Of a stretch of 64,000 nt of DNA, positions 1,742-48,165 are shown one piece after another. Origin of the DNA: an uncultured Arenicella sp. GTDB lineage: Bacteria; Pseudomonadota; Gammaproteobacteria; Arenicellales; Arenicellaceae. Numbering within the stretch: position 1 is the stretch's first letter; the number at the start of each line of letters is the position of its first letter. The notes under the pieces are model-generated. The model had not been told where the DNA came from. It did not search any database and worked only from the letters and a program-made list of their open reading frames with translations. The position numbers were made by a program, and so were the translations under genes. The stretch lies in NCBI GenBank assembly GCA_938048185.1, contig CALIVT010000019.1, positions 62,001 through 126,000 of the forward strand, read 5' to 3'.

Positions 1742-2873
1742 CCAGCTAAGCATTACTCGCATCGGCGTTTGCATACGTGCTTGCCTGTCGCCGGCTTTCA
1801 GCCGACAACTCAGCCTAGTGATCGCACTATTAGCGAGCTCGCACTTAGTAGTGGCCAATGCTCAGGTCGAGCTCTTGAACACCCATGACCTTGTAGAAAA
1901 AGGCACTAACAACTATCAAGTCGCGGGTAATGACCCGTACTGGGTATTTAAGCCAAAAGCGTCGGAGCTACCCGCCCAGTTTCTAAAATTAAACATAACA
2001 ACGAGCAAGGGCAATCGACCCGCCGAGTTATTTTTCAAACAACGGGGCAATGTGTTCGATCCTTGGTATCGATTAAGCTTTAACGCGCCGGGTAACGGTG
2101 ACGTGGCTATTAGGATCCCTGACACCGTGCAGATTGAAGTCGGTCAAACCTTGCGCCTGGATATAAACAGGTGCGGCTCATGCGACATAAAATTCAGTAC
2201 AGCAAGCCTTAGCCAGACTAGCGACGGTGCGGCTGAGGTCGAAATCACACGCCTATTTAATGGCATACAAGCCGTCGATGACTCGGGCAAGCTGATAACG
2301 CTTGACGATTGGCAGCTCAACGATGTTGCAGGCCTATTGTCGGGTTTCACGATCACGAATAATGATCCGTACCTCGTTTCACCCGACCTCAACGTTGGCA
2401 CCCAAAACCTGGCGGCAGTTTATTTTAAAGTAAGCGTACCGAAAAACGCGAATGTCAATAACGACTATCAGCTATTTTATGCTACTGAAAAGCACGCGTT
2501 CATCGAGCCTGCAACCTCGCTAATTCGCCTTGAAAACGACTCAGCGCCGTATGTTGAGTTGTTATTTCCATTAGATTTTCTGAGCCGAGAGATCCCTGCT
2601 GACAGCTTGCTTCAGAAAGTCAGGTTAGACCTGCCGTTAATTGAAGGTAAATGGTCACTTGATGAGGCAAAACTGCTTAGTTTTGCGCAACTTGAACACT
2701 ACCAGAATTCGGCCCCACGACAGTTGGTGCAATATAAGCGCCAGCGAAGCTCAGGCTTGGCGCTGATTAAAAAATCGCTTATGAATGTGTTTTCTGATTT
2801 AGGTTTCGTATTCAGCTATTTACTGCTACTTATTGCCATAGCGTTCGGTTTTATCAGAGCATTTAAGAAATAG
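1731..2873 (+). CDS. Exported beta-rich protein with C-terminal membrane anchor, unrecognised
   Basis: I chose the ATG at 1731, which overlaps the upstream stop by 11 bp; an in-frame ATG at 1701 would extend it by ten residues. A signal-like segment ends near ...VVANAQ, about residue 41, and a hydrophobic segment near the C terminus (FSYLLLLIAIAFGFI) followed by RAFKK would anchor the protein with most of it in the periplasm. Two similar blocks, each opening with a GNDPYW or NNDPYL motif and continuing in alternating beta-strand pattern, suggest a duplicated beta-sandwich. Comparable NDP-type blocks occur beside bacterial glycosyltransferases, from memory, so it may be an accessory of the preceding membrane protein. 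No family is assigned with confidence. Confidence 0.62.
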   Translation: MSTNQLSITRIGVCIRACLSPAFSRQLSLVIALLASSHLVVANAQVELLNTHDLVEKGTNNYQVAGNDPYWVFKPKASELPAQFLKLNITTSKGNRPAELFFKQRGNVFDPWYRLSFNAPGNGDVAIRIPDTVQIEVGQTLRLDINRCGSCDIKFSTASLSQTSDGAAEVEITRLFNGIQAVDDSGKLITLDDWQLNDVAGLLSGFTITNNDPYLVSPDLNVGTQNLAAVYFKVSVPKNANVNNDYQLFYATEKHAFIEPATSLIRLENDSAPYVELLFPLDFLSREIPADSLLQKVRLDLPLIEGKWSLDEAKLLSFAQLEHYQNSAPRQLVQYKRQRSSGLALIKKSLMNVFSDLGFVFSYLLLLIAIAFGFIRAFKK

Positions 2874-2877
2874 CGAC

Positions 2878-3138
2878 TTAGCGCTCTGCGCTATTGCGCG
2901 TCTCATATACCGATTTGACCATGGCTATTTTTAGCTCAGCGTAAATACCCTTCAATTCTTTATTATTAGTCTTTCGTGCGCGCTCAGAAATTTTCATAAG
3001 AATATCGGCGTCTTGCATCACTAACGTTTCGCCCCGCTTGGCTTTTAATACACGCACAAATCTAGCTACCAACCTTAGGCACTCTCCGTTCAACTGTGAT
3101 AACTGAACATCTTTTAGCGGGATTGTATTCCTATCCAT
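2878..3138 (-). CDS. Small hypothetical protein (86 aa)
   Basis: An 86-residue, probably all-helical, charged protein with no signal peptide or membrane span. It starts with ATG and ends four bases from the stop of the convergent plus-strand gene. The composition, including many Lys and Arg in RVLKAKRGE and RARKTNNKELK, is compatible with a soluble or nucleic-acid-associated protein, but no motif is recognisable. It lies about 80 bp downstream of msrC on the same strand and could be the last gene of that run. Reality is moderately supported by its clean fit between neighbours; I do not recognise its function. Confidence 0.5.
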   Translation of the reverse strand: MDRNTIPLKDVQLSQLNGECLRLVARFVRVLKAKRGETLVMQDADILMKISERARKTNNKELKGIYAELKIAMVKSVYETRNSAER

Positions 3139-3219
3139 AACAGCTATTTTACAATATGTCTCGTTAGTCGTCTGTCGCTAGCAAGTCACTTTACTTAGAT
3201 AAGGGTAACATTTTGCAAA

Positions 3220-3666
3220 TTAACGCGGGGCGAGCAGCTTCACCACCGCCTCAAATAGCGCCTTCTCAGCATTCGAAAATCGATTCTTTATCGGACTGTC
3301 TACATCGAGTACGCCAGCAAGCTCGTTGGCGTAAAAAGGCACAACAACTTCAGACTCACTGGCGGCGTCACACGCGATATGGCCTGCAAACGCATGAACA
3401 TCGTCTACAACTAGCGTCTTTCGTTCTGCGAAAGCCGTGCCGCAAACTCCCTGGCCAAGGGCTATTCGGGTACACGCAGGTTGCCCATTAAATGGCCCCA
3501 AGACCAACTGAGAATTTTTATGAAAATAAAATCCGACCCAATTTACATCCTCTAAATTATGATAAAGCAAGGCCGACAAATTAGCGGTATTGGCGATTAT
3601 GTCGCTCTCTGCGGAGATAAGCGCTTCAGCTTGTTTTAAAAGCAAAGAATAATGTTGATCGGACAT
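3220..3666 (-). CDS. msrC: Free methionine-(R)-sulfoxide reductase (GAF domain)
   Basis: A single GAF domain of 148 residues that reduces free methionine-(R)-sulfoxide, using thioredoxin as electron donor in the characterised Escherichia coli enzyme. The three family cysteines are present at residues 65, 75 and 99, with spacings of 10 and 24 residues as in the E. coli protein (84, 94, 118). The motifs NWVGFYF and LGPFNGQPACTRI are typical. It begins just 4 bp after the murI stop and is probably the end of the ugd-hldA-hldD-murI transcript. It fits an oxidative-damage repair role in the cytoplasm. Confidence 0.93.
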   Translation of the reverse strand: MSDQHYSLLLKQAEALISAESDIIANTANLSALLYHNLEDVNWVGFYFHKNSQLVLGPFNGQPACTRIALGQGVCGTAFAERKTLVVDDVHAFAGHIACDAASESEVVVPFYANELAGVLDVDSPIKNRFSNAEKALFEAVVKLLAPR

Positions 3667-3670
3667 CAGT

Positions 3671-4507
3671 TTATACGGTTAAGTGTTCTATTTTTTCAAA
3701 GCCTAAATACTCAAGGCTACTTAGGATTTTCGAGTGGCCTATTGGCTGCGTAAACGCGGCTACTTTTGTTGTGCTCGATGGTGTCTCACTCGCTCGTAAA
3801 TCAATGACTCGAGCGGTAACTCGCTCACCAAGGTTGCGCCCTTGGAGTAATTGTTGAACCCGCCTAGCAATCGCTGGCCCGGAATCTACCAGTCTAATGG
3901 ACTTGCCCGACGCCGCTGCTAGCTGTTCAATCTCGGTGCGTAACAACGGAAAATGCGTGCACGCTAATATGAGAGTATCGAGGCGGTCAACCTTGAATAC
4001 TGGTTCAAGTATGGTTGCTAGCTGATCGTAATCAATTGCCTTTCCATATAACTTGTCTTCGGCTAATTGTACCAGTTCGCTGCTTCCAAGAGATATAAGC
4101 TCGCAATCAGCAGCGAACTGCGCAATCAGGTTTTTAGTGTAATCACGATTAACCGTCGCCGGGGTTGCCAGTAGCCCGATCGTTTTAGTTTGACTTAATT
4201 GCGCTGCGGGCTTGATCGCCGGTACCACGCCGACAACGTCGAAATCAAACTTCTGCCGCAGCAGTGGCAAGACGACGGTACTCGCGGTATTGCAGGCAAC
4301 AACTAACACATCGGGATGATAGCGCTCAGCGATGGTCTGGCTGACCGCCAATACCCGCTTAACCAGCTCAGGTTCAGCTTTGGTACCGTACGGGAATGCT
4401 TGGTTGTCGCTGACAAAAACAAACTCGTGATTTGAGCACTGACTAACGACGTCTTGGTAAATGCTCAGACCGCCAACACCTGAGTCGTAAATCACAATGG
4501 AGGCCAT
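3671..4507 (-). CDS. murI: Glutamate racemase
   Basis: Converts L-glutamate to D-glutamate for peptidoglycan in the cytoplasm, without cofactor. The two catalytic cysteines are visible: C72 in the motif VVACNTAST and C183 in LACTHFPLL. The N-terminal IYDSGVGGLSIYQDV carries the conserved Asp-Ser pair, and SDNQAFPYG is also typical. The length of 278 residues is usual for the family. It sits 9 bp after hldD and directly before msrC, so cell-wall and LPS precursor genes appear to share a transcript. Confidence 0.96.
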   Translation of the reverse strand: MASIVIYDSGVGGLSIYQDVVSQCSNHEFVFVSDNQAFPYGTKAEPELVKRVLAVSQTIAERYHPDVLVVACNTASTVVLPLLRQKFDFDVVGVVPAIKPAAQLSQTKTIGLLATPATVNRDYTKNLIAQFAADCELISLGSSELVQLAEDKLYGKAIDYDQLATILEPVFKVDRLDTLILACTHFPLLRTEIEQLAAASGKSIRLVDSGPAIARRVQQLLQGRNLGERVTARVIDLRASETPSSTTKVAAFTQPIGHSKILSSLEYLGFEKIEHLTV

Positions 4508-4516
4508 GCAAAGTGC

Positions 4517-5500
4517 TTATCTTGCGGCGAGTAGTTGGCCTACATAGTGTTGAACGCCCTCTTCCACGGTTGCGAAATTTTTATTGTAGTCGCCCGACAT
4601 GGTTAGGTTAGTGAGGTCAGCTTTGGTGTAGCTTTGATATTTACCGACTAAGGCCTGCGGGAATTCGATGTATTGAATTTTCTTTTCAGCAACCCAGTCG
4701 GCGACGGTTTTATTAACACCCTCAAGCCGATTTAACACCGCAGTAGCAACGTCGTTAAAACTCTGCGCCCGCCCGGTGCCCACATTGAAAATACCACCAT
4801 CCTCAGGGTGTTCAAGGAAATGTAAATTCACATCCACCACATCATCAACCCAAACAAAGTCTCGCAATTGTTCACCATCGGCGTAACCGCCGCTGCCGCC
4901 AAACAACTTTACAAAACCTTGCTCATGATACTGATTAAAAAAGTGATACGCGACCGAAGCCATTCTGCCTTTGTGTTCTTCGCCTTGACCGTACACGTTA
5001 AAGTATCGCAAACCCACAACCTGAGAGTCGGAGGCGTCGCGATTCTTGCGCAAGTAGCGGTCAAATAGCAGCTTCGAATAGGCGTAGGCGTTTAACGCCT
5101 GCTCGTTCGCAGGGTCTTCTTTGAAGACCTCACCACCACCGTATACAGACGCTGATGACGCATAAATAAATGGAATACTGTGTTCACCACAATAATGGAA
5201 CAAGGATTTAGAATATTCGTAGTTGGTTTGCATGATAAACCGCCCATCAGTCTCCATGGTGTCAGAGCACGCGCCTTGATGGTAAACCGCGGTTGGGCCG
5301 CCAAATTCCATACCATTTTGAATGCGGCGCAAGAACTCATCTTTATCCATATAGTCTTCGATATCACAGTCTTCGATATTACGAACCTTATTGCCATCGC
5401 TTAAATCGTCAACCACAAGAATATTATTCAAGCCGCGTTTATTTAAACCTCGAACTAAGTTGGAGCCAATAAAGCCCGCACCGCCAGTGACGATAATCAT
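4517..5500 (-). CDS. hldD: ADP-L-glycero-D-manno-heptose 6-epimerase
   Basis: Last step of ADP-heptose synthesis for the LPS inner core: it inverts C6 of ADP-D-glycero-D-manno-heptose. It is an extended SDR with the N-terminal nucleotide motif TGGAGFIGSN (residues 5-14), the serine region YASSASVYGGG (113-123) and the Tyr-x3-Lys pair Y139/K143. The 327-residue length is close to other HldD proteins. It lies 24 bp downstream of the heptose kinase gene and before murI. The presence of hldD, hldA and ugd together indicates a heptose-containing LPS and possibly a uronic-acid sugar. Confidence 0.96.
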   Translation of the reverse strand: MIIVTGGAGFIGSNLVRGLNKRGLNNILVVDDLSDGNKVRNIEDCDIEDYMDKDEFLRRIQNGMEFGGPTAVYHQGACSDTMETDGRFIMQTNYEYSKSLFHYCGEHSIPFIYASSASVYGGGEVFKEDPANEQALNAYAYSKLLFDRYLRKNRDASDSQVVGLRYFNVYGQGEEHKGRMASVAYHFFNQYHEQGFVKLFGGSGGYADGEQLRDFVWVDDVVDVNLHFLEHPEDGGIFNVGTGRAQSFNDVATAVLNRLEGVNKTVADWVAEKKIQYIEFPQALVGKYQSYTKADLTNLTMSGDYNKNFATVEEGVQHYVGQLLAAR

Positions 5501-5524
5501 AATTCATTCCTACTGTAGTAAATC

Positions 5525-6472
5525 TTAGCGTTCATTCAACTTGTTAACGACTTCATCGATACTGGCGACCGCTGTACCCAGTTTGCCAACCACGATACCG
5601 GCAACCGTATTGGCGAGTGTCAATTTGTCGACATTAGAGAACTCACACACGGTGGCAAGTGCCATCAAGGAAATCACGGTATCGCCCGCGCCACTGACAT
5701 CATAGACCTCTAAGGCCGTTGCCGGCGAATCGATTTGCGAGCCGTCCATACAAAACAAGCTCATGCCTTGCTCGCTGCGGGTAACCAATAGATAATCCAA
5801 ATCAAGTTCTGAGCGCAACGCGTGAGCCTTTTCTACGAAGTCGGCTTCTGAGGTAACCTTACCAGCCACCGCTTCAAATTCTTTCATATTCGGCGTAATT
5901 AACGTCGCGCCTTGATAACGCGAATAATCACTGCCTTTGGGGTCTATGATAACCGCCTTATTGGCTTTTCTGGCAATCGTGATCATGTCTGTAACGTGGC
6001 GCAAACCACCTTTGCCATAGTCAGAGAGAACCACCACATCACAGTTGGTGACCGCAGCCCGATAGTCTGCCAGACATTGCGCTAGTACCTCGTCACTCGG
6101 CGTTTCTTCAAAGTCAGCACGCAATAGCTGTTGGTTCTGCGCGACCATGCGCAACTTAACAATGGTCTTAATCGAGTCGTCTACAATTAAGGTAGTCGTC
6201 GCACCATAGCCGGCGATAATTCGTTTAATCTCTCGACCAGCATCATCATCGCCTATAACTGATAACAAGGTGCTCTGCGCGCCCAGTGCCAATAGATTGT
6301 GCGCAACATTGGCCGCGCCGCCGGCGCGTACCTCTTCCTTTTTAACGGCAAGCACCGGCACCGGCGCTTCGGGCGAGATTCGGTCAACGCTACCAAACCA
6401 ATATCGGTCGAGCATCACGTCGCCAACGACGAGTGTTCTAATATTGGCGAAGTGGTCTTTAGTCAGTTGCAT
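5525..6472 (-). CDS. hldA: D-glycero-beta-D-manno-heptose-7-phosphate kinase, single-domain
   Basis: A PfkB-family sugar kinase that phosphorylates heptose-7-phosphate at C1. Family signs are LVVGDVMLDRYWFG at the N terminus, RAGGAANVAHNL near residue 50, and the DVSGAGDT catalytic/anion-hole motif at 258-265. At 315 residues it holds only the kinase half of the bifunctional HldE of enteric bacteria; the C-terminal nucleotidylyltransferase domain is absent and the stop codon is clean. A separate hldC is therefore expected elsewhere in the genome. The ATG at 6472 lies two bases from the ugd stop, so the two genes are surely co-transcribed. Confidence 0.92.
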   Translation of the reverse strand: MQLTKDHFANIRTLVVGDVMLDRYWFGSVDRISPEAPVPVLAVKKEEVRAGGAANVAHNLLALGAQSTLLSVIGDDDAGREIKRIIAGYGATTTLIVDDSIKTIVKLRMVAQNQQLLRADFEETPSDEVLAQCLADYRAAVTNCDVVVLSDYGKGGLRHVTDMITIARKANKAVIIDPKGSDYSRYQGATLITPNMKEFEAVAGKVTSEADFVEKAHALRSELDLDYLLVTRSEQGMSLFCMDGSQIDSPATALEVYDVSGAGDTVISLMALATVCEFSNVDKLTLANTVAGIVVGKLGTAVASIDEVVNKLNER

Positions 6473-6474
6473 AA

Positions 6475-7800
6475 TTAATTTGATCTGCCAATGCCATAAT
6501 ATTTGAAGCCCAGCGCCGCTAAGGTAACTGGCTCATAAATATTGCGGCCATCGAAAATGACCGCGTCACTGAGTTGAGACTTTAAACGAGCAAAATCTGG
6601 GCTGCGAAAAGTCTTCCATTCCGTCACAATTACCAACGCGTCGGCGGCCTCACTGGCATCGTACATGTTGCTGCACAAACTCACCGATGTATTGCCGGCG
6701 TAAATATCGTGGGCTTCGTCAGTCGCCACAGGGTCATAGGCTTGTATTTTAGCGCCGCGCGCTAGCAAGCCATCAATAACTACTCGGCTTGGTGCCTCTC
6801 GCATATCATCAGTATTGGGCTTAAACGCTAGCCCCCAAACAGCAATCGTTTTATCACTCAAATCGATGCCCATATGAGCATCGATTTTATTCAACAGTAC
6901 AGATTTTTGCGCGTGATTAACGCTTTCTACCGCCTCCAGAATTTTAGCGTCATAGCCATGTTGTTTCGCTGTTTTGTGCAGCGCTTGTACGTCTTTGGGA
7001 AAACACGAGCCACCGTAGCCGCAGCCAGGGTAGATAAAGTCGTAACCAATGCGCGGGTCGGAGCCTATGCCTTGTCGCACTAGCTCGATATCAGCGTCTA
7101 ACAGTTCAGCCAAATTTGATAGCTCGTTCATAAATGATATCTTCGTCGCCAACATCGCATTGGCCGCATATTTGGTCAGCTCCGCGGACGCAATATCCAT
7201 CACAATAATGCGCTCATGATTGCGATTAAACGGCGCGTATAAGGTTCGCATAGCGGTCACGGCGCGTTCGTCATCGGCCCCCACTACTACTCGATCGGGC
7301 TTCATAAAGTCTTCGATCGCCGCGCCCTCTTTCAAGAACTCAGGGTTCGATGCGACACTGAATTCGATTGCCACGCCCCGCGCATCCAGTGCGGCCTGAA
7401 TTGCGCTACGCACTTTTTCAGCAGTGCCCACCGGCACGGTCGACTTAGTAACGATTACGCGGTATTTAGATAAATTTTGACCAATCGCATTGGCCACGGC
7501 CAACACATGCGACAAGTCTGCCGAGCCGTCCTCACCAGGAGGCGTGCCAACCGCAATAAAAAGCACCTCAGCATGATCAACCGCTTGTTTAATATCAGTG
7601 GTGAACTCTAAGCGTTGATCAGCAACATTCGATTTCACTAGCCGCTCTAAACCGGGTTCAAAAATAGGAATCTTGCCGTCATGCAACAGATTAATCTTGC
7701 TCTGGTCTTTGTCTACGCACAATACTTGGTTGCCAACATCGGCAAAACATGCGCCTGTAACCAGACCAACATAGCCAGTTCCTACGATTGAAATCTTCAT
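6475..7800 (-). CDS. ugd: UDP-glucose 6-dehydrogenase
   Basis: Oxidises UDP-glucose twice to UDP-glucuronate using NAD+, supplying uronic acids or 4-amino-arabinose for LPS and polysaccharide. The Rossmann motif [11 protein letters not shown] opens the protein, and the catalytic cysteine is C266 in [11 protein letters not shown], with Lys219-type and Asn motifs between ([12 protein letters not shown]). The 441-residue length is standard. It is the first gene of a closely spaced minus-strand run with hldA and hldD, an arrangement I recall from Burkholderia-type LPS loci. There is a 67-bp gap to the upstream gene. Confidence 0.96.
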
Positions 7801-7867
7801 GACTTAAAAAGTGTTTTTGAAATTTGAAACGACGAATGAGGTATGCCGTAAAACTCGTAATGATAGA

Positions 7868-8839
7868 CTATTCATGCTTTTGAGTCACAAATATCGGGTG
7901 TAATACTCCACCCAGAGCGCCATCAAAGAGGGACTTTAGACGCATTAAAATAGCCACTGCTGCACCTAACTCAGCGCCGTAACCCATTGCAAGGAAAATG
8001 CTAGTGTACGCAAACTCCATCAAGCCTATATTGCCAAGCGACAGAGGAATATTCATTAACAACATGATAATCGGAGTCGCAATTAACATGTCTACAAGAC
8101 GAACATCCGCGTTAAATACCAATGCCGTAACATACACATTTAAGGCCGCCACGAGGTAGAACAAAAGAGAGTTCGCAAACGCCACAATAATGGTAATCGG
8201 CTGGGCACGATAATGATCGATCGAGCCGACTAAGGTATCAAGCTTAGCAAACACCTTGGCGCTGATCGGCGCCTTTCTCAACAGAGCCGCGCGCACCGCA
8301 TTGTAAGGTCGTTTATCGATGACTAACCAGCCAATAAGCCCCAATCCTAAGGCAAACATAGTCAAACTCACGATCACGAACCCCTGATTGAATCGTGACA
8401 ATTGGCTCAATACCGCTGCCGCCGCGACCAATAACAAGGTTAAAACACCGGTGTAGCGCTCAACAAATACCGACGCCAGCGAGTCGGCCTGGCGGCCGGA
8501 GAACTTGCCTAATTCATAAGAGCGTACGACATCGCCGCCGACACTGGTGGGTAAAAATATATTGTAAAATTGCCCGACAAGATAATAGGCAAATATGCGC
8601 CAGTAACCAGCACCAAGCGACTGCGATTGAGTCAGCAGAAACCACTTAAACGCGCTCACCAAATTGATTAAAACTCCGACCAACACCGACAAGATCAATA
8701 GCGGCAGGCTGGCGTTTTTCAACAGTGCAATAAAGCGCTGTTGACCCTCAGTCGACAAAAGGCCAGCTTGATAGAAAACAACCCCTAATAACGTGATTGT
8801 GACAACAATTTGAAGAAGTTTGAAAAGTCGTTTATTCAA
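7868..8839 (-). CDS. Flippase-like / lysylphosphatidylglycerol synthase transmembrane family protein
   Basis: A 323-residue inner-membrane protein with about eight spans, of the UPF0104/YbhN family (the membrane part of MprF-type proteins). Marks include the FLPTSVGGDVVRSYELGKFSGR segment near residues 95-117 and the C-terminal SLGNIGLMEFAY region. Members are thought to move or modify lipids or lipid-linked sugars. The only in-frame start is TTG at 8839, with no good ribosome site, so translation may be weak. It precedes the ugd-hldA-hldD run by 67 bp, which fits an envelope-lipid role, but the substrate is unknown. Confidence 0.82.
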   Translation of the reverse strand: MNKRLFKLLQIVVTITLLGVVFYQAGLLSTEGQQRFIALLKNASLPLLILSVLVGVLINLVSAFKWFLLTQSQSLGAGYWRIFAYYLVGQFYNIFLPTSVGGDVVRSYELGKFSGRQADSLASVFVERYTGVLTLLLVAAAAVLSQLSRFNQGFVIVSLTMFALGLGLIGWLVIDKRPYNAVRAALLRKAPISAKVFAKLDTLVGSIDHYRAQPITIIVAFANSLLFYLVAALNVYVTALVFNADVRLVDMLIATPIIMLLMNIPLSLGNIGLMEFAYTSIFLAMGYGAELGAAVAILMRLKSLFDGALGGVLHPIFVTQKHE

Positions 8840-44819: not shown

Positions 44820-45191
44820 TTGGAAAATACTCTCTTTTTTGATGGTCAATGTTCGTTGTGCGCGCATGAAATGGCGCTGCTCGAGCGTTGGAAAAACAGT
44901 AAACTACGACTCGTCGACATCCACTCGGAACATTGCGCAGAAATTGCAGGCGGGCTTAGCCGCAACGCCCTGCTTTCGATATTACATCTAAAACGAAGCG
45001 ATGGCAGTTGGGCGACCGGTTTAGACGCAACCGTTAGCGCGTGGCGCCACACGCCGTTTGGCTGGCTATTAACTCCGCTAAGGTGGCCACTTATAAAGCG
45101 CGTCGCAGATTCGCTCTACCTTCGTTGGGCGCAGAAGCGCGCCTGTCGTTTAGGCTATAGCGATACCTGCCAAACATCCGAATTCAAATAA
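44820..45191 (+). CDS. DCC-family thiol-disulfide oxidoreductase-like protein (DUF393)
   Basis: A 123-residue protein with the DCC signature FFDGQCSLCAHEM (C11 and C14) and the WRHTPFGWLLTPLRW segment. DCC proteins are predicted thiol oxidoreductases, but no biochemical role is settled. The TTG start at 44820 has GGGGA eight bases upstream. Its 3' end overlaps the 3' end of the convergent DUF1223 gene by 37 bp. Both are CxxC proteins and lie beside oxyR. Confidence 0.86.
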   Translation: MENTLFFDGQCSLCAHEMALLERWKNSKLRLVDIHSEHCAEIAGGLSRNALLSILHLKRSDGSWATGLDATVSAWRHTPFGWLLTPLRWPLIKRVADSLYLRWAQKRACRLGYSDTCQTSEFK

Positions 45192-45910
45192 CCACCACAG
45201 GCTTGCACAGGGCTGACACTGCCCTTCTCGCTCAACCAAGCGGCAATCGCGTATTGAGATGAAGCGAGCGCGGGTTTTTCAATGCTTCCGGACCACGCGC
45301 CGGATTGTGCGCTAGCGAATCGTGAAAGCTGCAAGACCACAAAATCATGACGCAATGTTTTACCCGTGTTTTCACCACGAGTAACCTCATTTTCCAAACC
45401 CAAACCCAATACCGCAACGTTTAATTGTAACGACTTTCCTTCAAGACTGGCGTCCAATTCGCTAAAGCTCGCTGAAAAATCACCGTTCGCCGAGACCGAC
45501 AGTTTTAGCTTGCCTACGTCGACGCCATCATCTTGAGTCGGGCCACCCCATAAGCGCCAACTGCGCCATTCATCACCCGCTTTTCTGATCCCTGGTGTGT
45601 AGACGGTAGACTCATTGTTTTCGTGCGCATAACGGCGCTGGCGCTGACTGTATTCAGGGCTGGCAAACGGGTCTTTCCAACCGATGTAGTCCCAATAATC
45701 AACATGCAAGGCTACGGGCACAAATCCAGACCAGAGGTCTTCGTGGTCCTTTAGACCTGATAGCCAACGATCTGCCGGCGGGCAGCTACTGCAACCTTCT
45801 GACGTGTACAGTTCAATTAACGGCACTTGCTTGGTGCCGCTAGTAAATTCTTGCGCCTGGACTGAGACCGCAAACGCTAAAACACTGATAAACATGACTA
45901 AAAATTTCAT
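45155..45910 (-). CDS. DUF1223 exported thioredoxin-like protein
   Basis: A 251-residue protein with a signal peptide (MKFLVMFISVLAFAVSVQAQ) and a thioredoxin-like domain whose active-site-like motif is TSEGCSSCPPADRWL (C40, C43). The rest matches the DUF1223 family: DYWDYIGWKDPFASPEYSQRQR. The start chosen is ATG 45910, which overlaps the stop of oxyR in an ATGA quartet; a GAGG ribosome site is at -9. Translation therefore appears coupled to oxyR. Function is unknown, but a periplasmic redox role is likely. Confidence 0.88.
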   Translation of the reverse strand: MKFLVMFISVLAFAVSVQAQEFTSGTKQVPLIELYTSEGCSSCPPADRWLSGLKDHEDLWSGFVPVALHVDYWDYIGWKDPFASPEYSQRQRRYAHENNESTVYTPGIRKAGDEWRSWRLWGGPTQDDGVDVGKLKLSVSANGDFSASFSELDASLEGKSLQLNVAVLGLGLENEVTRGENTGKTLRHDFVVLQLSRFASAQSGAWSGSIEKPALASSQYAIAAWLSEKGSVSPVQACGGYLNSDVWQVSL

Positions 45911-46809
45911 AAACAACCTCTTTCAACAGCCGCATAAGTTTCACTGACCGACGTTGCAATAGCCTCTAAAGCAGGCCTGCGCGCCGTGTGGCTGCGCATC
46001 AACATCACAATTTCGCGCGTTGGTTGCGGCGCAACAAACGGCAAATAAACAACCCCTTGAACTCTATTTCTAGAGGCCAAAGCGGGAATCAACGTAGTAC
46101 CAGCGCCGGTGCCGACCATGTGCAATAGAGTGTCCATACTCGTGGCTTTAAACCGTTCATCTTCGCGCGCGCCGGCTGAAAAACAAACGCCCATCGCCTG
46201 TTCTCTAAGGCAGTGGCCATCTTCGAGCATCAACACCGATCGTCCTTCGAGCACGCCTAAGTCAACTGAATCGGATTCACCAACAAGCTCATCTTGGTCG
46301 TGGACAGCGAGTTTCATTGGCTCTTGATAGAGCGAAATTTCATGCACCGGATGACTCCAATCAAGCTTGGCTAAAATACCGGCATCTAGTTCACCTTTTA
46401 ATAACTTCGCGATTAAGACATCCGTTTGAAGTTCGTACAGAAATAGTTTGGCGTGCGGAAATTCACGGCTTAGCACCGGCATCAATAGTGGCAATAGAAA
46501 CGGCCCTACTGTCGGTATTAAGCCAATATGAAAATCTCCGTGCATCGGGTCATCAGAAGCTCGTGCGATCGCATGGATATTGTCTACGGAAAGCAAAACG
46601 TCGCGTGCCATCGATACGATTTGTTCGCCAAGAGCGGTGAACAGTACTTGACGTGTTGAACGTTCGATCAACGCTGCACCGAGCTCTTCCTCAAGCTTTT
46701 TGAGCTGCCCGCTGAGCGTGGGCTGGCTTACAAAACAACGCTCAGCGGCCTTGCTAAAGTTATTCAAGTCATGAACAGCTACTAAATATTTCAGGTCGCG
46801 TATGTTCAA
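45907..46809 (-). CDS. oxyR: Hydrogen-peroxide-sensing LysR regulator OxyR
   Basis: A 300-residue LysR regulator in which the redox cysteines are both present, C200 and C209, in LEDGHCLREQAMGVCF, matching C199/C208 of E. coli OxyR. The DNA-binding end is MNIRDLKYLVAVHDLNNFSKAAERCFVSQPTL, so translation begins at TTG 46809; GGAG lies six bases before. It should activate antioxidant genes when oxidised. The DUF3820 gene lies upstream, then peroxiredoxin-glutaredoxin, then photolyase; the downstream partner is DUF1223. Confidence 0.95.
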   Translation of the reverse strand: MNIRDLKYLVAVHDLNNFSKAAERCFVSQPTLSGQLKKLEEELGAALIERSTRQVLFTALGEQIVSMARDVLLSVDNIHAIARASDDPMHGDFHIGLIPTVGPFLLPLLMPVLSREFPHAKLFLYELQTDVLIAKLLKGELDAGILAKLDWSHPVHEISLYQEPMKLAVHDQDELVGESDSVDLGVLEGRSVLMLEDGHCLREQAMGVCFSAGAREDERFKATSMDTLLHMVGTGAGTTLIPALASRNRVQGVVYLPFVAPQPTREIVMLMRSHTARRPALEAIATSVSETYAAVERGCL

Positions 46810-46858
46810 AGTTTCTCCGTATGCGAGATGTTATCTAACTGATGTTATCTAACTATGG

Positions 46859-47134
46859 TCAATTCTTTAAAGGCCTCAATACGTCGTCTAAACCTTCAAT
46901 TTTCAAATCTAAGCATAGGCGCATCAAATCGCCTAGCTCGCCCTTAGGGAATTCGTTTTTCTGAAACCAGAAAAGATACTCTTCAGGCAAGTCAATCAGC
47001 ACGCGACCAGCGTATTTACCAAATGGCATTTGCCACCTCGCCAGCTTGAGTAGGTCCTCTTGAGAAAAACCTATATGTTGCGCTGCATCGCGGTTCAAAT
47101 CAGACGTCTGATCAATATCGTTATTTTCAGTCAT
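46859..47134 (-). CDS. DUF3820 family small protein
   Basis: A 91-residue protein started at ATG 47134 (a TTG at 47158 would add eight residues). The motif WQMPFGKYAGRVLIDLPEEYLFWF is the DUF3820 core, also called quorum-sensing-regulated virulence factor in some databases; homologues are widespread and mostly uncharacterised. It lies between the prx-grx gene and oxyR on the same strand, after the prx-grx terminator. No catalytic motif is obvious. Confidence 0.85.
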   Translation of the reverse strand: MTENNDIDQTSDLNRDAAQHIGFSQEDLLKLARWQMPFGKYAGRVLIDLPEEYLFWFQKNEFPKGELGDLMRLCLDLKIEGLDDVLRPLKN

Positions 47135-47160: not shown

Positions 47161-47201
47161 AAAAAAATAAGGGCGCAGAACATACTTGTCCTGCGCCCTT
47201 A
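47161..47201 (-). terminator. Rho-independent terminator of the prx-grx gene
   Basis: TAAGGGCGCAG (47168-47178) pairs with CTGCGCCCTTA (47191-47201), loop of 12 bases. On the minus strand the stem is followed by TTTTTTT. It is 64 bp after the stop. Confidence 0.92.
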
Positions 47202-47264: not shown

Positions 47265-48023
47265 TTAACTATCTTGCAGAAAAACCTCTAAATCATCGGA
47301 ACCACCTATATTTTTACCGTCAAAGAAAACTTGAGGAACAGTAGCGTTACCAGAAATAGCTTTAACACTGACCGACGTTGCGTCTTTTCCGAGCACTATT
47401 TCTTCGAAATCAATGCCCTTCTCATGCAGCAAGGTTTTCGCCTTTGCGCAAAATGGGCAGCCAGGTTTAGTAATCATCGCTACGGATTGAGGCTTGAGTG
47501 CTTGCGGGTTAATGTAGTCGAGCATTGTGTCAGCATCAGACACTTCAAACGGGTCGCCAGGCACGTTGGGTTCTACGAACATTTGCTCGACAATGCCGTT
47601 TTTAACCAGCATTGAGTATCTCCATGAACGCTTGCCGAAACCAAGATCCTCTTTGCCAACTAACATGCCCATGCCCTCGGTAAACTCCCCATTACCATCA
47701 GGAATAACGGTAACATTACCCGCTTCTTGGTCTTGCTTCCAAGCGTTCATCACAAAGGTGTCGTTAACACTCATGCAAATGATGTCATCAACGCCATTGC
47801 TGGCAAAGGTCTTAGCCAACTCGTTGTAACGCGGTAGGTGAGTCGAAGAGCACGTTGGTGTGAATGCGCCCGGCAAAGAAAACACCACGACGGTTTTACC
47901 CGCGAATAAGCTGTCAGTGCTGACGTCGTGCCACTCATCATTATCACGCACCCTGAAGGTGACGTTTGGTACGGCTTTGCCAACCATATCGTTGGTAGTG
48001 TTTACTGCTGCTGAATTTGACAT
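47265..48023 (-). CDS. Peroxiredoxin-glutaredoxin fusion (hybrid Prx5)
   Basis: A glutathione-dependent peroxidase: an N-terminal Prx5-like domain (peroxidatic C58 in [16 protein letters not shown]) fused to a C-terminal glutaredoxin domain (C189 and C192 in [12 protein letters not shown]). The fusion lets the glutaredoxin reduce the peroxiredoxin within one chain. I used ATG 48023 with GGAG seven bases upstream; a TTG 12 bp earlier is less likely. At 252 residues it matches known hybrids. It is a natural OxyR target, with oxyR close by. Confidence 0.95.
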
Positions 48024-48165
48024 TAAAGTCTCCAAAAAATATTAAAAGTGAACTTGCGGTGAACAATAAAGTCTTGCTAACCGAAAGTGAAATAGTTTGT
48101 TTCTCTATACATTATAGGTTTTACCTATAAATTAATTCGGTCTTTTTAGTGCGTCTAAACAGGGG

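Follow-up and report, generated by a model that had tools for sequence, protein, structure and literature searches.

SrlA (SMc03845) of Sinorhizobium meliloti is the sole member of the DUF1223 family for which we found a phenotype. Its deletion renders the bacterium sensitive to H2O2, cumene hydroperoxide, and salt on solid medium (PMC9561847). SrlA has a predicted signal sequence, a thioredoxin (Trx) fold, and a CxxC motif, and it is 58% identical to Atu2684 (PMC9561847). The Trx fold of the family is already known, the Atu2684 structure (PDB 2AXO) being placed among Trx-fold proteins in SCOP (PMC3091736). SrlA also represses its own CenKR-dependent promoter, and this autorepression is diminished in the CxxC mutant C61S (PMC9561847). 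Here, we examine a DUF1223 gene that lies directly behind oxyR in a 64,000-nucleotide stretch of DNA from an uncultured Arenicella sp. (GenBank assembly GCA_938048185.1, contig CALIVT010000019.1, positions 62,001 to 126,000 of the forward strand), which we refer to as the window and number from its first letter. The window protein resembles SrlA in having a signal peptide-like start, a Trx-like fold, and a CxxC motif. SrlA differs in its CenKR-dependent promoter, and the portions of its report available to us describe no link to oxyR or to methionine sulfoxide reductase (Msr) (PMC9561847).

Other described systems join a Trx-fold protein to CcdA and Msr. In the pneumococcal CcdA-Etrx-SpMsrAB2 system, the extracytoplasmic Trx-fold protein Etrx was shown to recharge exported Msr (PMC3914529), and Trxe of the CcdA-Trxe-MsrAB system of Haemophilus influenzae is proposed to do the same (PMC9404787). 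A locus of Fusobacterium nucleatum carries the genes for Trx, CcdA, MsrAB, ModR, and ModS, and its mutants are sensitive to H2O2 (PMC9239216). DUF1223 is set apart from Etrx and Trxe by an additional β-sandwich domain and by its separate Pfam family; Etrx2 is closest to ResA, and Etrx1 is called TlpA (PMC3914529). Compared with the Fusobacterium locus as far as it is described in the text available to us, the genus of the window has oxyR instead, and there is no Msr in the cluster.

The DUF1223 gene of the window (45155..45910, minus strand, 251 aa) starts with ATG and follows oxyR (45907..46809, minus strand, 300 aa), which starts with TTG. As the initial annotation had reported, the oxyR stop and the DUF1223 start overlap in an ATGA (45907..45910, minus strand), and a GAGG located within oxyR (45917..45920, minus strand) sits 6 nt 5′ of the ATG as a putative ribosome-binding site. 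Four-nucleotide overlaps are very common between genes within operons, and the overlap by itself is not surprising. The TTG start of oxyR, preceded by GGAG, and the cysteines C200 and C209 of its product were likewise borne out by the sequence; oxyR begins with ATG or GTG in six genomes of the genus where its start is complete. OxyR contains cysteines at positions 25, 200, 209, and 299, and its redox segment C200-C209 (CLREQAMGVC; 46183..46212, minus strand) corresponds to the E. coli pair C199/C208. The protein matches the LysR-type helix-turn-helix and substrate-binding domains (PF00126 and PF03466) and exceeds the cut-off of the NCBIfam OxyR equivalog NF008361 (336.6 versus 329 bits).

We propose that DUF1223 is a Trx-like electron carrier for extracytoplasmic protein repair, a reading that we consider evenly balanced between right and wrong. 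The window protein is a two-domain Trx-like protein of exported type, whose CxxC would most likely take electrons from the inner-membrane DsbD/CcdA route and hand them to extracytoplasmic repair enzymes, chiefly exported Msr (MsrB, MsrAB), with repair of peroxide-damaged envelope proteins as the outcome. In the genus, oxyR and DUF1223 would make up a small unit linked at the level of translation, next to a gene for a peroxiredoxin-glutaredoxin fusion (prxgrx) that is predicted to be under OxyR control; DUF1223 would have ended up behind oxyR, and its product and the peroxide sensor are probably produced jointly. A two-component system occupies the place of oxyR in some other lineages. We infer that the protein is exported, that it passes electrons to Msr, and that it is co-expressed with oxyR. 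The family is widespread, we found almost no literature on it, and its Msr, kinase, and CcdA neighborhood makes a family role in recharging exported Msr testable. Such a role would fit the peroxide phenotype of SrlA, and the pairing with oxyR suggests that different stress sensors can each come to govern this one protein.

The window protein consists of a signal peptide-like N terminus (residues ∼1-20), which we judged by eye, without a signal-peptide program, a Trx-like domain (∼31-110), and a C-terminal β-sandwich (∼133-241). It matches Pfam PF06764 with 154.5 bits (cut-off 30.7) over profile positions 1-198 of 202. Its cysteines are at positions 40, 43, and 238, the first two forming the CSSC motif recognized in the initial annotation (residues 40-43; codons at 45782..45793, minus strand). 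C40, C43, T105, and P106 are near-invariant, each being retained in 203 of 204 alignment rows, a count that takes in genome_contigs loci retrieved with a pattern set containing C40. These rows represent 204 of 216 proteins, duplicates and rows shorter than 180 aa having been removed, and the single row lacking both cysteines is L240. An AlphaFold model built from 68 sequences (pLDDT 93.2), which supersedes an earlier one from 12 sequences (pLDDT 79.3), has the CSSC at 40-43 and a helix at 43-55. The model aligns with 2AXO over 199 residues (Z 19.7, 24% identity on the structural alignment), and the sequence is matched by phmmer over residues 14-209 (E 6.2e-19); Atu2684 belongs to the DUF1223 family (PMC3091736). 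As modeled, DUF1223 has the Trx fold, its first helix begins with the CxxC, and it carries a T-P loop in which P106 is presumed to be cis.

The second match over the full length is HBP35 of Porphyromonas gingivalis, with which the two-domain architecture of the model also aligns (5Y1A; Z 17.6, 213 residues, 16% identity). Among the other matches listed, Z does not exceed 7.2, and these are mostly glycosidase and arrestin chains, as common β-sandwich arrangements give. HBP35 reduces insulin via its CxxC, and its gene complemented an E. coli dsbA mutant (PMC2907840). That activity, together with an exported-type Trx fold bearing a CxxC, would suit a protein acting in the manner of DsbA or DsbC, as an oxidase or isomerase that guards or rearranges disulfides when the cell is stressed by peroxide. 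We consider this very unlikely for DUF1223, among whose neighbors the best 25 of the 47, 48, and 93 families include none of DsbA/DsbB type; partners of the reducing side recur instead, namely, Msr and, in family f107, CcdA. HBP35 differs in binding hemin through the part beyond residue 135 and in occurring at the cell surface (PMC2907840). The likeness seen in the model does not by itself imply common descent.

The Msr and CcdA neighborhood, rather than the coupling to oxyR, is the better clue to function; the oxyR adjacency is limited to one genus. DUF1223 is found in 57 of 100 relatives, 82 of 370 class genomes, and 99 of 299 phylum genomes. We scored Msr as adjacent when a tblastn match shared the strand of DUF1223 and was no more than 400 nt away. 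By this measure, Msr adjoins DUF1223 in half of the 46 relatives outside the genus that carry the gene (23/46), comprising all 22 DUF1223 genomes of family f9 and G053, as well as in 7/78 class loci and 1/80 genome_contigs loci. For comparison, some three Msr genes per three thousand would, as a rough estimate, make a random neighbor an Msr in ∼0.2% of cases. In a Pfam scan of 39 same-strand upstream neighbors, 14 matched SelR (MsrB) and 3 matched PMSR (MsrA), and among 55 same-strand class neighbors SelR was the commonest (7), with 6 HisKA and 5 PMSR. The downstream neighbors of the first set are not dominated by any family (HSP20, 3/28). The phylum loci, 60 stretches of ∼111 listed places in 99 genomes, yielded 34 same-strand neighbors. 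The upstream tally covers 39 of 47 neighbors and is without L012, L112, L122, L126, L135, L138, L145, and L155, of which L012 has MsrB by tblastn. Neighbor calling excluded L001, L031, and L082 and lost L030, L102, L110, L113, L124, and L160, and in the class it lost L188, L236, L238, and L239; the class matches G414 and G250 are fragments and are not included.

On a 125-row tree, the Msr label changes 6 times, compared with a mean of 27.6 when labels are shuffled (0/500 shuffles as low), a contrast that near relatives inflate. Because well-supported branches require at least 2 of the 6 changes, the tree makes more than one gain of the Msr linkage likely. The genome_contigs loci other than L137 were omitted from the tree, as were L240 and the duplicate G002 protein.

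In five class loci from three families (L180, L202, L208, L213, and L220), the genes for a response regulator, a histidine kinase, DUF1223, and Msr follow one another in this order. Pfam confirms the kinase in every one of them and the OmpR-type regulator in L180, L202, and L213; in L208 and L220, the regulator is recognized from its sequence start. Four of the Msr, which are either MsrAB or MsrB, match Pfam families, and the one in L220 is recognized by tblastn. The N termini of these Msr are hydrophobic and of exported type, with a twin-arginine-like start in L202. In L213 and L220, the second gene upstream of the regulator, in the same orientation, is CcdA-like (DsbD_TM), and only the end of such a gene is visible in the L208 stretch. 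These two loci therefore have the arrangement of CcdA, Trx, and MsrAB, and L208 has it within the limits of its stretch. The f107 loci with CcdA, regulator, kinase, DUF1223, and MsrAB contain the same kinds of genes as the Fusobacterium locus (PMC9239216), with DUF1223 in the Trx slot and in a different gene order. In a Bacteriovoracaceae metagenome-assembled genome (L137, 3583-5777, plus strand), an exported-type fusion of Trx, AhpC/TSA, and MsrB overlaps DUF1223 by 4 nt. The CcdA-like, regulator, kinase, DUF1223, and Msr genes of L213 lie in a single orientation (2715-8515, minus strand). A plasmid search bearing on the signal sensed by the five-locus kinase gave kinases that are ∼40% identical and carry mostly generic names, and it did not decide the matter; DUF1223 itself occurs in 37 of 72,556 plasmid records, Rhizobium being the most frequent source (8).

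That DUF1223 immediately follows a response regulator and a histidine kinase in these five class loci also bears on the main rival to electron transfer for repair, a regulatory role of the CxxC. DUF1223 would then be a redox-responsive sensor accessory that, when either reduced or oxidized, damps an adjacent or distant envelope two-component system and thereby adjusts the response to stress, the same logic being attached in the genus to the oxyR unit. SrlA behaves in this manner insofar as autorepression is diminished in C61S while growth on salt is still complemented (PMC9561847). We nonetheless regard a sensor accessory as unlikely. Msr is the commoner partner of DUF1223 and mostly, as in family f9, comes without a kinase as immediate neighbor, and no kinase lies beside DUF1223 in the block of the window. 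In addition, an exported DUF1223 could not act directly on OxyR because OxyR is cytosolic. Combining the carrier with such a role, DUF1223 might be a structurally distinct, dedicated extracytoplasmic Trx for Msr repair whose CxxC also reports the envelope redox state to the adjacent regulator, the regulator having been swapped among lineages (a two-component kinase in some, the cytosolic peroxide sensor OxyR in this genus). We hold this combination to be improbable; if true, it would mean that a single repair protein has been connected to several kinds of oxidant sensor.

For the carrier role that we prefer, a possible electron donor and acceptor are both predicted in the genome of the window, unlinked to DUF1223. 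The donor would be a full-length-looking DsbD (DsbD_TM, 605 aa) and the acceptor the one MsrB, which has a twin-arginine-like N terminus as judged by eye; each is encoded on another contig than DUF1223.

How far the adjacency to oxyR extends was assessed in 18 genus genomes (G000-G017, G000 being the window genome), in which the block was inspected except in G004, G014, and G016. DUF1223 is present in 11 of them and stands behind oxyR in eight (G000, G002, G003, G007, G009, G010, G011, and G017); in G003, the 3′ part of oxyR adjoins DUF1223 and the remainder is on another contig. The exact form of the overlap is not conserved across these eight genomes: the junction is −4 in the window, −11 with an upstream ATG in G007, G010, and G011, +10 in G009, 0 or +30 depending on the start codon in G003, +50 or +77 in G017, and +158 in G002. 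Ten genus rows and G018 form one clade in the tree (SH-aLRT 100; G002 is absent from the tree), and the arrangement is for this reason compatible with a single origin followed by later losses. Beyond the genus, oxyR is adjacent in 0/46 DUF1223-bearing relatives and in 0/78 class, 0/80 genome_contigs, and 0/60 phylum loci, with the limits that many loci of relatives had only 1.5 kb of flank, some being ended by contig ends, and that the genome_contigs locus L082 is the G006 contig. Two candidates were not counted as adjacent. An OxyR-like gene (173 bits) lies on the opposite strand ∼2 kb from DUF1223 in L159, from an uncultured Dechloromonas, and a 59-bit LysR-like match lies ∼4 kb away in the genome_contigs locus L156.

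The adjacency is thus not widely conserved; it is confined to one genus and broken both ways within it. The initial annotation had drawn a periplasmic redox function from the coupling to a peroxide sensor and named, as evidence that would count against this idea, an adjacency found only in this lineage together with no redox phenotype or expression response. The adjacency is indeed lineage-only, whereas a published peroxide phenotype of the family exists (PMC9561847). An extracytoplasmic redox role is well supported by the Msr and CcdA neighbors, the conserved CxxC and T-P, the Trx-fold structures, and the peroxide sensitivity of the DUF1223 mutant (PMC9561847). As the key clue, however, the oxyR coupling is weak, given one genus, breaks in both directions, and no OxyR box of at least 15 upstream. 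Taken by itself, the pairing with oxyR is a modest finding that holds for one lineage. We found no paper that names DUF1223 together with oxyR or methionine sulfoxide reductase, in a search that left subscription literature mostly uncovered and that papers using other protein names would escape.

Several results weigh against a carrier that recharges Msr, or against its tie to OxyR. Msr is adjacent by tblastn in 0/11 DUF1223 genomes of the genus, and the arrangement of CcdA, Trx, and MsrAB is consequently not found there, no Msr lying beside DUF1223 in these 11 genomes. In the phylum set, Msr is adjacent in 0/60 loci, 54 of them outside the class; an MsrA-like match lies ∼0.8 kb downstream in L269, and an MsrB-like match lies ∼3 kb upstream in L280. 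In family f9, a simple hydropathy check of the 22 Msr partners found 15 without a clear hydrophobic N-terminal stretch, L008 being borderline, and 3 with one (L002, L022, and L242). The remaining 4, which could not be called by hydropathy, include L007, which looks exported, and L025, which does not. A cytosolic MsrB cannot directly partner an exported DUF1223. SrlA C61S complements the salt phenotype (PMC9561847). On the OxyR side, G006 and G015 retain a prxgrx-DUF3820-DUF1223 block without oxyR, G006 being only 82% complete and G015 having a weaker OxyR-like match elsewhere (237.8 bits). In the window, none of DUF3820, oxyR, and DUF1223 is preceded by a match to at least 15 of the 20 OxyR-box consensus positions. 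Joint presence of DUF1223 and OxyR is unconvincing as proof of a link, with 25 of 370 class genomes having both and ∼20 expected from the marginals of 82 and 89 (counted by hand, with OxyR at E 1e-75 or better). We also note that in f9 loci such as L016 and L025, DUF1223 overlaps or abuts an MsrB gene whose product is without an exported-type N terminus.

As another rival, the oxyR-DUF1223 junction might be a neutral accident of the lineage, with DUF1223 serving an envelope role, such as salt tolerance, that is not mainly concerned with peroxide. The adjacency is found in one genus only, and there oxyR is missing from the block in G006 and G015 while G001, G005, G008, and G012 keep oxyR and have no DUF1223 match; oxyR is adjacent in none of the 78 class or 60 phylum loci. 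SrlA mutants are also salt-sensitive, and that function is independent of C61 (PMC9561847). The recurrent linkage to Msr, the published peroxide phenotype, and the near-invariant redox motifs make us doubt this explanation. In G013, DUF1223 is located elsewhere in the genome.

On the same strand upstream of oxyR lie a DUF3820 gene, prxgrx, and then a photolyase gene. The DUF3820/QSregVF_b gene (PF12843; 46859..47158, minus strand) directly precedes oxyR; its listed reading frame starts with TTG, and a later ATG at 47134 is possible. The prxgrx gene (47265..48023, minus strand) starts with ATG at 48023 and is preceded, 68 nt upstream, by an OxyR box (48092..48128, minus strand) that agrees with 18 of 20 positions of the consensus. 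The box is the sole match of at least 15/20 in the 64-kb window; one of six random sequences of 64 kb gave a 15, and five gave none. The chance of a match per 150 nt is 0.029 for a score of at least 14 and 0.006 for at least 15. Predicted boxes of at least 14 precede prxgrx in 9 of the 11 family genomes with oxyR and prxgrx in the block (the window, G001, G005, G007, G009, G010, G012, G017, and G019, but not G002 and G008), and boxes of at least 15 occur near prxgrx in 7 of the 11. Two genomes stand outside this count: G003, where the prxgrx match is incomplete and no box was seen, and G011, whose block lacks prxgrx. In the fetched stretches of the two genomes without oxyR in the block (G006 and G015; loci L064 and L070), a box of at least 14 was found in neither. 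Because the boxes recur upstream of prxgrx in family genomes, OxyR control of prxgrx is well predicted.

Such control has precedent in Bordetella, where H2O2 induction of prxgrx and OxyR binding were demonstrated in work on CopZ-PrxGrx-GorB and oxyR-prxgrx pairs, prxgrx there being under OxyR as we predict here (PMC7794356). In that report, 19.4% of prxgrx genes have an oxyR neighbor in antisense orientation (PMC7794356). Unlike in those pairs, the two genes here share a strand: prxgrx comes first, then DUF3820, oxyR, and finally DUF1223. A terminator-like hairpin of 15 pairs and a T run (47168..47201, minus strand) between prxgrx and DUF3820 divides prxgrx, with its strong box, from DUF3820-oxyR-DUF1223; 4 sites of this kind were counted in the region, compared with 4.3 in shuffles, so that the hairpin is not significant by number.

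Further box-like matches were seen at two other loci. In G002, a 14/20 match (L062:6839-6875) falls within the 158-nt gap between oxyR and DUF1223, which do not overlap there. In G013, a 15/20 match (L077:7194-7230) lies just upstream of a more distant oxyR-like gene, whose product is 41% identical to window OxyR, in a genome where DUF1223 is not beside it. Between DUF3820 and oxyR, the window contains a tandem 14-nt repeat, AGTTAGATAACATC (46827-46854, minus strand), which is possibly a regulatory site. At its 3′ end, DUF1223 overlaps by 37 bp with a convergent DCC1-like gene (PF04134; 44820..45191, plus strand), and a DCC1-like gene is likewise present in the block of G005, G011, and G017.

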